Virus record (IMG/VR): IMGVR_UViG_3300044620_000202
Location: 1 to 34,847 of that record
Strand: one strand, 5' to 3'
Length of the DNA stretch: 34,847 nt
Source of the DNA: a virus
Shown here: piece by piece, positions 128 to 34,847 of the stretch
Position numbering within the stretch: position 1 is the stretch's first letter
How the letters are laid out: every line of letters begins with the position of its first letter
The notes under the pieces: generated by a model
Database searches by the model: none
Told to the model about the DNA's origin: nothing
Seen by the model: only the letters and a program-made list of their open reading frames with translations
Translations under genes and position numbers: made by a program

Positions 128-146
128 GAATGTGCAGAGATGCCAT
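1..146 (-). CDS. PAS-HisKA protein, N-terminal part (gene crosses the circle junction)
   Basis: This is the start of the sensor-like protein whose remainder lies at 34300-34847; bases 1-127 are shared by both ends. The ATG is at 146-144 and the protein begins MASLHILESS. Joining 146-128 to 34847-34300 gives 567 nt and 188 aa. The segment IDLFYVIADSEGLIL resembles the first strand and turn of a PAS domain. A TAAATTTG box lies only 4 nt upstream of the ATG, implying an almost leaderless mRNA. See the 34300-34847 entry for the domains. Confidence 0.85.
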   Translation of the reverse strand, partial: MASLHILESSIDLFYVIADSEGLILTSNELFKEYSSHIKPKNILDIAS

Positions 147-173: not shown

Positions 174-578
174 CTATGCGATTTCCTTGCGGATATTATC
201 CACTAAAGACTTCCAAGCTCCCTGACTTGAAATAAGATACTGCACAGTGATGAACATCGTAAACGCAAGGACGATACCGTTGATTGGTATATCTAAATTC
301 ATAGGCATTGGCTCATTCTTTTGGTTTGATCTTACATCGACAAAGGTTAACGGCTCTGCTTTAACTGAGGTGATCAATGATATGTTACAAGGTTGGATAG
401 AATCGAATGCAGTTAACTCAGGTTTTTCAACTATCGGCATCTCAATCTTTGGCACTTCAACAACAGCAACAACCTCAACAGCCGAATCAACAACTGATCC
501 AGTAGTTACCGAAGTATCAAAGCTAATTGATCTGTGTGTTACCTTATACACTGTATCTCTAACTGTCTGCTGATTCAT
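174..578 (-). CDS. Putative membrane protein of the lysis region
   Basis: Unrecognised protein of 134 aa from the ATG at 578; an upstream in-frame start at 611 would run deep into the holin gene, while 578 leaves a 20-nt overlap. Residues about 30-60 are rich in V, P and E. One hydrophobic segment (GIVLAFTMFITVQYLIS, about residues 101-117) is followed by a basic tail ending NIRKEIA, so it is probably anchored by its C-terminus. Its position directly after lysozyme and holin suggests a lysis role (second holin, antiholin or spanin-like), but this is inferred from context only. Confidence 0.6.
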   Translation of the reverse strand: MNQQTVRDTVYKVTHRSISFDTSVTTGSVVDSAVEVVAVVEVPKIEMPIVEKPELTAFDSIQPCNISLITSVKAEPLTFVDVRSNQKNEPMPMNLDIPINGIVLAFTMFITVQYLISSQGAWKSLVDNIRKEIA

Positions 579-768
579 CGCTCTTAGCTTTTGGAATATA
601 CCCTGCTGCAATCAATGCAGCCACTATCGCTGCCATTGTTTCGGTGGAAATGACCTTAAAGATCAGTAAGTAAATTGATACTAATATCATTAGCGAGCCG
701 ATGGTTGAACGCCAGTGCTTGATGATGATGTTGAATATCTTTTTAGTCTTAGTAATCCTTGCTGCCAT
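559..768 (-). CDS. Putative holin
   Basis: A 69-aa protein with a basic N-terminus (MAARITKTKK) and two closely spaced hydrophobic stretches, about residues 23-40 (STIGSLMILVSIYLLIF) and 43-58 (ETMAAIVAALIAAGYI), then a short charged tail. Size, topology and position right after the lysozyme gene fit a small class II-like holin that permeabilises the inner membrane so the endolysin can reach the peptidoglycan. No specific family is recognised. The 3' end overlaps the next gene by 20 nt. Confidence 0.65.
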   Translation of the reverse strand: MAARITKTKKIFNIIIKHWRSTIGSLMILVSIYLLIFKVISTETMAAIVAALIAAGYIPKAKSDESADS

Positions 769-814: not shown

Positions 815-1273
815 CTAAACTTTACAAGGCGTGAAGTATAACTTCGCCTCTGCTGCCCTTCTTGTAGTCAGCCCTTGCAGCACTTTGCCTGCTGCTTTAT
901 TCCACCGCATAAACTCATCGAGAATGCTTGGATCATTCGGGTTGACCTTTGCCTTGCGTACCAATGTTGATCGCCCAAATGCAGAGCCTCCAATATTGTA
1001 GCACAGGCTCACCAACGCATCGAATTGATATTGATTGAGGTTTGGCAGGTTCTTGTTTACAACCGATTCAAAAGGCTCTAAAGTATCAAGAAGCAGTTGG
1101 GTTGCCATTGCCTCATTAACCAACTTCTCACCCAACAACACCTTGCGCCCATCAGGATAGCGAGTGCTGCCGTAGCCAATCGTTGCCACCTTTGCTGGGC
1201 AGAGATAAGCCGATAGCCTCAAACCCTCATAAGCCTTGATAATCTTCAAGCCGTTGATGGATGTTGAGCGCAT
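815..1273 (-). CDS. Endolysin, GH24 phage lysozyme
   Basis: A 152-aa T4-type lysozyme that cleaves the MurNAc-GlcNAc bond of peptidoglycan. Catalytic residues follow the E-8aa-(D/C)-5aa-T pattern: E16 (in YEGLRL), C25 (in YLCP) and T31 (in ATIGYGST). The cysteine at the usual Asp position is a known variant of the family. Later landmarks are FDALVSLCYNIGG and the C-terminal TTRRAAEAKLY helix. There is no signal peptide, so release depends on the adjacent holin. The start ATG overlaps the stop of the upstream fibre gene (TAATG). Confidence 0.92.
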   Translation of the reverse strand: MRSTSINGLKIIKAYEGLRLSAYLCPAKVATIGYGSTRYPDGRKVLLGEKLVNEAMATQLLLDTLEPFESVVNKNLPNLNQYQFDALVSLCYNIGGSAFGRSTLVRKAKVNPNDPSILDEFMRWNKAAGKVLQGLTTRRAAEAKLYFTPCKV

Positions 1274-25827: not shown

Positions 25828-25996
25828 TGTGCTGCTGCTGTATTACGTTCATTAGGTATTTCTTCACTATCTCCCTGATGGCTTGCTTATGGCTGGCAGG
25901 CACTCTAAATGTGATGTTCTCAGTCTGCTCTCCATACTTCGACTTCGTGCCTGCATTAGCCCTGTAACCACCCCTTGCTTTTTTACTGACTTCCAT
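25769..25996 (-). CDS. Putative ribbon-helix-helix DNA-binding protein
   Basis: A 75-aa basic protein. GGYRANAGTKSKYGE, then ENITFRVPASHKQAIREIVK is a ribbon-helix-helix-like pattern (beta strand NITFRVP followed by a helix). Such small proteins often act as autorepressors or transcriptional switches. It is the first gene behind its own TATCTTTG promoter, with 4 nt between box and ATG. It is a good candidate for a phage regulator. Confidence 0.65.
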   Translation of the reverse strand: MEVSKKARGGYRANAGTKSKYGEQTENITFRVPASHKQAIREIVKKYLMNVIQQQHNDKVNDHSLRHRIGGNEAR

Positions 25997-26048: not shown

Positions 26049-26741
26049 TTATTTGAAATAATCAAACACTTTTGCAATATCTGATCCAGCTAAATCAAAC
26101 CACTCACCTCTAATCCTTTTACTTGAAAACAAACTATGTAACTCTTTTTCATCTTTAACTCTTGCATCAAATTGATGGATTAATTCTATTGATGGCTTTT
26201 CTGATTGCAAAGTTTTCTCACGATAAAGCGGATTGTTTGATCTGCCTATCTTATAATAGCCAGTATTTTTATCAATCATAAGATACACTTTAGTAAATCT
26301 ATAAGATAAAGATTCAGGAGTTTTAACTGATTTAACTTCTATCAAGTTTGTAATATGTGTTCTGGCATCTGAAGCAATTTGCTTCAAATTGCAATCTAAA
26401 ACAAAGCCTAAAACTGTTGGCATAATTACATCCCATCTAAAGTCATTTAATGGAATAAAACGAGTATCTGATACTTTGAAATAATATGTGTCATCATCTA
26501 AATGATAACGACAATTGTAGTCATCGCATTTTTTTACATCGATTATCTGATAAATTCTATCTTTTTTAGGAAATAGCAATTTTATATCTGTTCTGTTTTT
26601 GTTAGACCAAGAAATAAGTTCTGCTTTTTTATCGTGTTTAAGTTTGTCTAAGTAGTTTAACTCTTCTTCAAACTTTTTAAACTTACCTATTAATTCCATT
26701 TGAGAAGAATCAAATCTGCTGCATAAATTTTGTTCGTTCAT
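26049..26741 (-). CDS. GIY-YIG/T5orf172-type (MUG113-like) protein
   Basis: A 230-aa protein. The C-terminal 85 residues (YLMIDKNTGYYKIGRSNNPL, EKELHSLFSSKRIRGEWF) match the T5orf172/MUG113 branch of the GIY-YIG nuclease superfamily. The N-terminal 100 residues hold a charged helix and a DNA-binding-like part (KKFEEELNYLDKLKHDKK). The gene is visibly more AT-rich than its neighbours, roughly 30 percent GC by eye, suggesting recent acquisition. It may be a homing-type or host-directed nuclease. Its start overlaps a 59-aa gene by 4 nt. Confidence 0.75.
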   Translation of the reverse strand: MNEQNLCSRFDSSQMELIGKFKKFEEELNYLDKLKHDKKAELISWSNKNRTDIKLLFPKKDRIYQIIDVKKCDDYNCRYHLDDDTYYFKVSDTRFIPLNDFRWDVIMPTVLGFVLDCNLKQIASDARTHITNLIEVKSVKTPESLSYRFTKVYLMIDKNTGYYKIGRSNNPLYREKTLQSEKPSIELIHQFDARVKDEKELHSLFSSKRIRGEWFDLAGSDIAKVFDYFK

Positions 26742-26932: not shown

Positions 26933-27715
26933 TTAATCAAATGCACAAACTTCACAAGGCTGTGTATCTGTTCCGAGCGAATCCCTGCCAAACTTTGTGT
27001 AAAATTCTGTCTTATCTCTACCCCAGTGCTTTTCAAGTTCATTACTTAGATCAATCGCTTTTTGCCAATAATCGGGAAAATGCTTTTTTACTTTATCGAA
27101 ATCACTGCTTTGCATATTCTTACAAGGCAGGCAATTGTTATGAGGAAAGGTTCTGCTTCCATCGGTGTTTTTGATGTCGTAAATTTTCGGATACCAACCT
27201 ATCTGTTTTTTTACAATCTGAAAACACCATTCGTTCTCCTTGTTTGAAATAGGGAAAGCCTTTGTTGTTTTGGTTTCAGGATTCTTTTTATGCATATTAC
27301 GAATCCTTCTTGATTCTTCTTTCACATATCCAACCAAGTCAACATCGATCCCGTTTTCTTTAGCATACTTCATCATTGGCTCAATCTTCAATATCCTTGT
27401 GCAAGGTGCAATGATTGGGTGAGGTATCATCTTTTGTTCTCTGAAAAATTCTAAAACGCTGTTATTGGTTTGTGAGTAAATCACATTCGAAAACTTTGTT
27501 TCAGCATAGGCAATGCCAGCAATAACGAAAGGCAAAGTGTCGGGTGAATGTTCGTAAAAGTGAGCGTAAAACAAATGCAGTTCTTTAGGCTTCAATTCGT
27601 CTGGATATAAAGCAAGGCAGCATAATACAGCCATTGAATTAATGCCTCCCGAAAGACCTATCAAAACTTTCTGTTGAGAATAGTCTATGTAATTGGTGAA
27701 TAGTTCTTGTTGCAT
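26933..27715 (-). CDS. PP-loop ATPase, PAPS-reductase-like
   Basis: A 260-aa protein of the PAPS reductase/ATP-pyrophosphatase superfamily. The PP-loop is LSGGINSMAV (22-27 SGGINS), where the usual Asp of SGGxDS is Asn. A second block (PCTRILKIEPMMKY) and Cys pairs NNCLPCKNM and PCEVCAF follow, probably metal-binding. Phage members are common but their chemistry is often unknown; proposals include nucleotide or DNA modification and sulfur transfer. No Dnd partner genes are present, so phosphorothioation is not supported. Confidence 0.8.
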   Translation of the reverse strand: MQQELFTNYIDYSQQKVLIGLSGGINSMAVLCCLALYPDELKPKELHLFYAHFYEHSPDTLPFVIAGIAYAETKFSNVIYSQTNNSVLEFFREQKMIPHPIIAPCTRILKIEPMMKYAKENGIDVDLVGYVKEESRRIRNMHKKNPETKTTKAFPISNKENEWCFQIVKKQIGWYPKIYDIKNTDGSRTFPHNNCLPCKNMQSSDFDKVKKHFPDYWQKAIDLSNELEKHWGRDKTEFYTKFGRDSLGTDTQPCEVCAFD

Positions 27716-33428: not shown

Positions 33429-34097
33429 TTATGGAGTTGCCAATTTAACTGCCGTAATTCCGAGCAATGCTCCGAATCCGATCTTGGCTGCTGTGGTCTG
33501 ATACCACTTTTTGTCTTGCCTAACCACTACGTTACGCATACCGGTCAAGTTGATGTTTGGATTATCGACACCGATCCGCACTACGGGATCTGTCCTTTTT
33601 AGAATCTTTGAAATAAAGCCCTCTCGCAGCGTATCTCCGATCGCAACGGTATAAGATGCAGGAATGATTAAAGAATCGATCTGAATGAAGCCTAAGCGGT
33701 TAATTCGTCCTCCTATCTCCAACCATCTTTCTATCTTGTGAAAGGTTCTTGGAAGTTTAAGATGCGGAAAGCTATCGACATACACCACATCGCCCACCTT
33801 AAACTCTGTTTTGTACACTGTCTTAGTCTTATACTCAATAGCTTGGCTGACTTCTGCCATCTCCATCTTCTCCTTTAACGCATCCACAGCCCGTTCAGAT
33901 TGATTGATCTGCAATGCCTGAGTAAAGATGATCAGCGAATCATCGGTTATCCTTTTGGTAAAGATTTGATTCTCCTCAATTAGATATTGCTTATCGCCCT
34001 TTAGTTCTTTGATGGTTGCACAACTACGCCCCAGCATCAGGACCAGAATAGTGATGATTGAAAGCGATACGATCAGGTGAGTGTTAGATGGCTTCAT
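33429..34097 (-). CDS. Membrane-anchored coiled-coil protein, spanin-like
   Basis: A 222-aa protein with an N-terminal transmembrane helix (HLIVSLSIITILVLMLG, residues about 7-23), a coiled coil (about 30-80: IKELKGDKQYLIEENQIF, VDALKEKMEMAE), a beta-rich middle (FKVGDVVYVDSFPHLKLP) and a C-terminal hydrophobic segment (IGFGALLGITAVKLA). This plan recurs in Bacteroidetes phage proteins and resembles an i-spanin (Rz-like), but the C-terminal hydrophobic part is atypical. It overlaps the upstream gene by 14 nt. Confidence 0.6.
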   Translation of the reverse strand: MKPSNTHLIVSLSIITILVLMLGRSCATIKELKGDKQYLIEENQIFTKRITDDSLIIFTQALQINQSERAVDALKEKMEMAEVSQAIEYKTKTVYKTEFKVGDVVYVDSFPHLKLPRTFHKIERWLEIGGRINRLGFIQIDSLIIPASYTVAIGDTLREGFISKILKRTDPVVRIGVDNPNINLTGMRNVVVRQDKKWYQTTAAKIGFGALLGITAVKLATP

Positions 34098-34287
34098 TGT
34101 GCAGGAGTTGAATGATTTGATTTAATCGCATAAAGCTACTTGCCTTATCCCGAAGATTATCATTGAGGATATTCACCACCACTGAGAATGGCATCTCTTT
34201 CTCTCTTACATAACTGGCTAACACTCTAACAAGTCTATCATCACATTCCTGATCACTTAGAGGCAAAGTATTAACCGATTCAAGCAT
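34084..34287 (-). CDS. Small protein downstream of the PAS-HisKA gene
   Basis: A 67-aa helical protein from ATG 34287 (MLESVNTLPLSDQECDDRLV), with VRVLASYVREKEMPFSVVVN in the middle. A TACATTTG box lies 3 nt upstream of the ATG; a TTG start at 34293 would lie inside the box. It is not a response regulator receiver (no conserved Asp/Lys pattern). Its adjacency to the sensor-like gene makes it a possible partner, but there is no sequence evidence for that. Confidence 0.65.
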   Translation of the reverse strand: MLESVNTLPLSDQECDDRLVRVLASYVREKEMPFSVVVNILNDNLRDKASSFMRLNQIIQLLHNEAI

Positions 34288-34290
34288 ACC

Positions 34291-34298
34291 CAAATGTA
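34291..34298 (-). promoter_or_regulatory. -7 promoter box downstream of the PAS-HisKA gene
   Basis: The minus strand reads TACATTTG, starting 1 nt after the stop codon of the PAS-HisKA gene and followed by GGT and the ATG at 34287. TTG lies 16 nt upstream (TTGACTCGCC). Predicted leaderless transcript. Confidence 0.5.
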
Positions 34299-34299
34299 G

Positions 34300-34847
34300 T
34301 TAAATTTGGCGAGTCAACTTCTTGACAAGCAACCTAATTGATTCATCAAGTTTCTTAACGCTGTCGGCAATCATCTCCATTATCGCAGATCGTTCTGATT
34401 CCGTTGCTTCCTTATGCTCCATCAGCATATCGACCAAGCCACCGATGGAAGTCAATGGCTGGCGTAGTTCGTGCGAGATCATAAAGCGGAACTCCTCAAT
34501 CAGCACTTTCTGCCGTTCGTGTTCGTGGGCAGTGATGCTCGTAACATCCACGCAAGGGATGCCGATGAAGTGAAGGGAATCCAAGATGTAGTAAACATTC
34601 CACATATTGTAACGCTCGCTGCCGATCTTCTGCTTAGAACGCACATAAACCCGTTGAGGATCTGGTGGTCTTGATTTGGATCTGTTAATAGTTGCCAAGA
34701 AATCATCCCGATCACTGTCGTTGGATGCAATGTCGAGGATGTTCTTTGGCTTGATATGGCTGCTATATTCTTTGAAAAGTTCATTACTTGTCAGTATCAA
34801 CCCTTCAGAATCGGCTATAACGTAGAATAAATCTATTGAAGATTCAA
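34300..34847 (-). CDS. PAS-HisKA sensor-like protein lacking the kinase domain
   Basis: This is the main part of a 188-aa protein that starts at 146 across the junction. Residues about 10-115 form a PAS-like domain (RPPDPQRVYVRSKQKIG, WNVYYILDSLHFIGIPCVDV), then a signalling helix (HEHERQKVLIEE) and a HisKA dimerisation hairpin: MISHELRQPLTSIGG with phospho-acceptor H132 and second helix SVKKLDESIRLLVKK. It stops there: no N, G1, F or G2 box (HATPase) is present here or elsewhere. It could accept phosphate from, or form heterodimers with, host kinases. The ExxT/N phosphatase motif reads ELRQ. Confidence 0.85.
   Translation of the reverse strand, partial: ESSIDLFYVIADSEGLILTSNELFKEYSSHIKPKNILDIASNDSDRDDFLATINRSKSRPPDPQRVYVRSKQKIGSERYNMWNVYYILDSLHFIGIPCVDVTSITAHEHERQKVLIEEFRFMISHELRQPLTSIGGLVDMLMEHKEATESERSAIMEMIADSVKKLDESIRLLVKKLTRQI
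34721..34847. repeat. Terminal direct repeat, right copy
   Basis: An exact copy of bases 1-127; see the left copy. The PAS-HisKA gene reads through this overlap without interruption when the ends are joined, which supports circular closure. Confidence 0.95.

Follow-up and report, generated by a model that had tools for sequence, protein, structure and literature searches.

A PAS-DHp protein without a catalytic ATPase domain is a core gene of an uncultured phage lineage and a candidate phospho-acceptor in host signalling

The PAS-DHp gene and its surroundings

The window, as we call the whole analysed stretch of 34,847 nucleotides, belongs to a tailed phage with recognised terminase and portal proteins. 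Its minus strand carries every gene used in the analysis. Bases 1-127 are the same as bases 34721-34847, and the contig thus closes into a circle of 34,720 bp. Assemblers commonly use words (k-mers) of 127 bases, and the overlap may be a circularisation artefact instead of a true terminal repeat. The overlap splits a gene of 188 codons, whose product joins a PAS fold to a DHp/HisKA hairpin (PAS-DHp). The late block, with its lysis end towards the gene, flanks it on one side and a recombination/replication block on the other. The features are as follows.

34300-34847, minus strand: PAS-DHp gene from the contig end to the stop codon (34302-34300), defined by the open reading frame with the circular join and by uncut relatives
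128-146, minus strand: 5' end of the PAS-DHp gene beyond the junction, with its ATG at 144-146
34543-34839, minus strand: PAS fold, residues 10-108 (AlphaFold2 model with alignment; VIA-align Z 14.1)
34306-34521, minus strand: DHp/HisKA helical hairpin, residues 116-187 (Pfam HisKA and model helices)
34432-34497, minus strand: H-box, residues 124-145, EEFRFMISHELRQPLTSIGGLV (dN/dS about 0.01, a relative value)
34471-34473, minus strand: His132 codon
151-158, minus strand: -7 box TAAATTTG, 4 nt before the ATG
34084-34293, minus strand: 69-aa small helical protein with the invariant motif LPxTDxECDERL, always the next gene
33429-34097, minus strand: 222-aa protein with an N-terminal membrane helix, third member of the conserved triad; overlaps the 69-aa gene
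174-611, minus strand: 145-aa protein with a C-terminal membrane helix, directly upstream of PAS-DHp
559-768, minus strand: 69-aa holin-like membrane protein (weak matches)
815-1273, minus strand: endolysin (phage lysozyme; Pfam Phage_lysozyme, 4e-37)
near 29.6-32.7 kb: recombination/replication block with exonuclease-like and related genes

The contig break falls inside the PAS-DHp gene, as it might if the protein were a truncated kinase or if an assembly error concealed an ATPase domain. Identical 188-aa proteins (100% identity) are nevertheless found at full length inside three other contigs (L002, L003 and L004), hence neither the junction nor the stop is an assembly error. One stop site is common to 84 loci and 87 distinct proteins, while the stop codon itself differs (TAA or TGA) and the same gene follows directly. 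With full-length copies in many contigs an assembly artefact is ruled out, and the probability left to a truncated or hidden kinase is negligible. The preliminary description of a 188-aa gene running across the junction, with a PAS domain and a HisKA hairpin bearing the acceptor histidine and then a stop, is borne out by the uncut copies, the Pfam match, the structural model and the 87 relatives.

The small adjacent gene described earlier is also present: it begins 6 nt past the PAS-DHp stop in the window and is always next in the relatives, where this 61-69-aa gene overlaps the PAS-DHp stop by ATGA (4 nt) in 42 of 81 cases. Its product matches no family. In the window the 69-aa gene also has a TACATTTG box of its own, followed after 3 nt by an internal ATG (34287). 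Domain search with the 222-aa protein gives weak scattered matches only, among them a weak DUF6549 match in one member. In the 20 loci compared the order is endolysin, holin-like protein, TM protein, PAS-DHp, the 61-69-aa protein and a membrane protein of 214-229 aa, followed mostly by a 96-aa gene and then a protein in the SSB position; one locus (L014) ends just past PAS-DHp. The PAS-DHp, 61-69-aa and membrane-helix genes are likely translated together. Elsewhere in the window, positions 26049-26741 encode a protein with a C-terminal GIY-YIG-like domain (MUG113/T5orf172), a possible nuclease, and positions 26933-27715 encode a PAPS-reductase-like (HUP-fold) protein that scores slightly under the Pfam cut-off.

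The constant company of these three genes, always together and in the same order next to the endolysin and holin-like genes, and the frequent ATGA overlap could mean that the PAS-DHp dimer is a signal scaffold, which controls the ECDERL and 222-aa membrane proteins, for example in lysis timing, without any phosphate chemistry. Gene order alone does not demonstrate an interaction, however, and the 222-aa protein has no assigned function. Such a scaffold also leaves unexplained the conservation of the H-box described below, which is typical of phosphate chemistry. We thus consider it quite unlikely.

Domain anatomy and conservation

The only Pfam match in the 188-aa protein is HisKA (PF00512) at residues 129-177, with 34.4 bits against a cut-off of 26.9; no Pfam PAS model matches the sequence. 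A profile search of the PDB aligns residues 98-181 with the PAS-HisKA-HATPase kinase ThkA of T. maritima (PDB 3a0r, E 4.7e-6); this stretch runs from the end of the PAS domain, with its DVT motif, through the linker into the DHp. Structure prediction from the single sequence reached a pLDDT of only 53.7, so we used an AlphaFold2 model built on an alignment of 15 relatives (mean pLDDT 76.5; mostly 76-93 in the PAS part and moderate, 59-85, in the hairpin). Prediction gives the PAS fold and the two-helix hairpin that the preliminary description expected: residues 14-104 hold five strands and helices in the order of a PAS domain, and two helices follow at 116-150 and 156-187. The best PDB match of the PAS part is ARNT PAS-B (Z 14.1, rmsd 2.2 Å, 100 residues). 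Top Foldseek matches of the model are LOV/PAS-histidine kinases (E 2.7e-6, about 205 columns). They support the domains and not their arrangement, since the low TM reflects a different inter-domain angle.

The protein terminates at residue 188, directly past the second helix, with no C-terminal CA-like domain. It has the DHp with the acceptor histidine of a HisKA-type histidine kinase but no HATPase_c; neither the protein nor any other part of the phage contains the CA domain of the PAS-HisKA-HATPase kinases. HATPase_c (PF02518) is absent from the window phage and from 36 other genome-length relatives, and HATPase_c_2 (PF13581) from the 18 records searched. With these two profiles no ATPase domain is found elsewhere in the phage, and the absence of a catalytic ATPase domain claimed from the sequence alone holds for the lineage. 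Nine records searched for a phage-encoded response regulator contain none.

Scans of IMG/VR, in which sequences are unevenly sampled, with successive queries raised the number of encoding stretches from 41 to 215 and then to 337. From these we have 87 non-redundant full-length relatives, all 186-188 aa long and down to 49% identical to the window protein. A census independent of the gene, made on relatives found via the portal protein in contigs of about 34 kb or more, finds PAS-DHp in 36/36 and HATPase_c in 0/36. PAS-DHp is thus a core gene of the phage lineage, a large group without cultured members in which every genome-length member of the census has the gene.

His132, Glu133, Arg135 and Pro137 are present in all 87 proteins, so the motif H-E-x-R-x-P is invariant. 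Residue 136 (H+4) is Gln in 86 and His in one, and the T/N of HisKA phosphatases does not occur. Codon comparison of 364 gene pairs, which are not independent so that the values are relative only, gives a dN/dS of 0.074 overall and 0.077 for the PAS part. At 0.010 the H-box (124-145) is the most tightly constrained, and at 0.11 the second helix, with the loop, is the least conserved.

This pattern bears on a dominant-negative role, in which the hairpin would swap into the DHp dimers of host kinases and block their autophosphorylation, its own histidine being unused. DHp hairpin and PAS are both dimer-forming modules, and a precedent for attack on host kinases is PIT4 of the lytic Pseudomonas phage LSL4, an early protein directed at host two-component systems; this inhibitor, which came from interaction screens, binds several host histidine kinases at their kinase domains (PMC10714779). 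Its likeness to PAS-DHp would lie in the target. An exchange of dimer partners would do without His132 and Glu133, yet these two are kept in 87/87 and the H-box is under the strongest constraint, while conservation is lowest in the dimer-facing helix 2. The dominant-negative role proposed earlier is therefore still conceivable, though it does not call for the conservation observed, and we rate it as rather unlikely.

Promoter, lineage and probable host

The near-leaderless promoter proposed in the preliminary description is also found in the relatives. The box TAAATTTG stands 4 nt before the ATG, and among 76 distinct upstream regions 69 carry TAnnTTT[G/A] no more than 22 nt from the start, 65 of them at exactly 4 nt. 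The seven regions without the box at the expected place all belong to the most divergent lineages. Information content is maximal at -12 to -5, with 0.9-2.0 bits against mostly <0.6 elsewhere. The sigma-A box of Flavobacterium psychrophilum, TAnnTTTG, occupies positions -12 to -5 relative to the transcription start, and leaderless mRNAs make up only 5.5% in that species (PMC9723704). With this position rule, transcription from the phage box would begin at the A of the AUG, which predicts a leaderless PAS-DHp mRNA. Two further genes, at window positions 25996 and 8813 on the minus strand, show the TAnnTTTG box upstream of the ATG at the same distance of exactly 4 nt, hence more leaderless transcripts are likely.

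The TAnnTTTG box favours a host from the Bacteroidota, and the distant relatives of the tape measure agree with this; the host phylum is, on these sequence features, probably Bacteroidota. Terminase and tape measure have distant relatives only, several of them from Flavobacterium and Bacteroides phages. A DNA-level search with the structural block gave no match among isolated phages, and tblastn against 50,697 phage records found no isolated relative. Phage_integrase is absent from the 18 records examined, and the full-length profile finds no relatives in genome contigs that would indicate integrated copies or a prophage origin. The phages thus look virulent.

CA-less PAS-DHp proteins of Bacteroidota and the proposed role

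The homologue search has led from the 87 phage relatives to CA-less PAS-DHp proteins of Bacteroidota as the nearest bacterial sequences. In 198 Bacteroidota genomes, the best match to the full-length phage profile is a 389-aa protein of Filimonas zeae (E 2.8e-10; loci L089/L096) with the architecture PAS-PAS-HisKA, which ends after the DHp. The next-best bacterial matches (L290, L288 and L287) end 9-17 aa past the matched DHp. With a profile of six CA-less proteins searched in 148 genomes, 47 DHp proteins were read out: 23 stop 1-22 aa past the domain, 24 run on for 149-296 aa and none falls between, where 23/47 is not a phylum-wide frequency because the loci were chosen by profile score.

Phage and host CA-less profiles match with an hhalign probability of 99.1. 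In a DHp tree (63 rows, 99 columns) the phage clade (100/99) sits on a long branch, and the CA-less (92/75) and CA-bearing (91/72) proteins form a group each, either of which may be its sister. By profile match the phage protein appears to be kin to the host CA-less DHp proteins. They share a PAS domain, a HisKA hairpin, a stop within about 25 aa and the motif H-x-x-R. The host proteins add input domains (REC, GAF, more PAS), whereas the phage protein has one PAS. H-x-x-R is invariant in the host proteins; however, H+1 is E in 7/23 and otherwise V, K, L, N, Q, T or I, in contrast to H-E in 87/87 of the phage proteins, and H+4 is A, G, R, S or Q. With the histidine kept, the H+1 acid not kept and such residues at H+4, the host proteins fit pure phosphotransfer. 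Since they do not conserve the H+1 acid, the phage protein is not simply a host CA-less protein.

In three genomes a REC-PAS-HisKA gene without HATPase is flanked by single receivers of 143-146 aa and 127-133 aa, near CA-bearing kinases; in the second of them (L340) a HisKA-HATPase gene directly precedes the operon.

L338:4568-6415: receiver / REC-PAS-HisKA / receiver operon
L340:4105-7010: receiver / REC-PAS-HisKA / receiver operon
L341:4413-6372: receiver / REC-PAS-HisKA / receiver operon

To judge from gene content, this looks like a phosphorelay layout with the CA-less DHp as the transfer step. CA-less PAS-DHp genes are also often found as neighbouring pairs (L337:5292-7677, L336:6152-11859 and L317), which suggests hetero-dimers or a relay. 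A literature search with most subscription journals outside its reach found no paper on the Bacteroidota CA-less PAS-DHp proteins or on a phage-encoded one, and this signalling set is apparently undescribed.

What the phage hairpin might do can be read from the residues next to its histidine. Work on CrdS and three further HisKA kinases shows that the kinase reaction alone requires the acid at H+1 and that phosphatase activity alone requires the T/N at H+4 (PMC3510030). The proteins ChpT and Spo0B are a precedent for a DHp dimer that has no autokinase activity and works as a phosphotransferase; their phospho-histidine sits on a hairpin of two helices, and two such hairpins pair into a four-helix bundle (PMC3433190). 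The phage hairpin is a predicted one. The phage protein has an N-terminal PAS and lacks the degenerate CA-like domain found at the C-terminus of ChpT.

HisKA DHp domains can also be phosphatases, the CA domain taking no part in the chemistry. A phosphatase for a host response regulator would thus be possible with the DHp alone. Against it stands the Gln at H+4 in 86/87: the corresponding N375Q substitution left CrdS with no measurable phosphatase activity (PMC3510030). Moreover, Glu133 is invariant here, though the H+1 acid is dispensable for phosphatase activity in CrdS (PMC3510030). The phosphatase-like module suggested from the sequence alone is thus disfavoured, and we hold it to be improbable.

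The invariant His132 with an acid used in the kinase step, a phosphatase-dead H+4 and no CA domain favour a phospho-acceptor charged in trans. Of the three roles offered in the preliminary description, the decoy phospho-acceptor is therefore the best fit, with His132 and Glu133 in 87/87 and the acid serving the kinase step only in CrdS (PMC3510030). Given the CA-less PAS-DHp proteins of Bacteroidota, however, which that description did not know of, the target is likely a phosphorelay rather than a kinase.

Hence, we suggest, with about even confidence, that the phage PAS-DHp is a phospho-acceptor or phosphotransfer protein in a host phosphorelay, acting as a sink or a rewiring node. The protein would form a DHp dimer, and His132 would be phosphorylated in trans by a host receiver domain or by the catalytic domain of a host kinase. 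The phosphoryl group might then be held on His132 or passed on, so that the protein would be a phosphotransfer node under the control of its PAS domain; most likely it would serve as a sink in the relay or re-route it. Partner identity and the benefit to the phage we infer rather than observe.

A more specific proposal is tentative. The phage lineage might rely on a dedicated phosphotransfer protein to rewire a Bacteroidota phosphorelay with CA-less PAS-DHp proteins, of the order kinase, receiver, CA-less DHp, receiver; this layout appears undescribed. With its kept acid, the phage protein would be charged directly by host kinases and would drain the relay.

To our knowledge, the phage proteins described as acting on two-component signalling are mainly small inhibitors. 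In this case the phospho-acceptor module itself is a core and strongly constrained gene of a phage lineage without cultured members, and signalling chemistry thus seems to belong to the basic programme of infection. The Bacteroidota proteins that end after the DHp, 23 of the 47 sampled loci, point to a signalling branch overlooked by standard kinase annotation, and their function, once found, would explain that branch.
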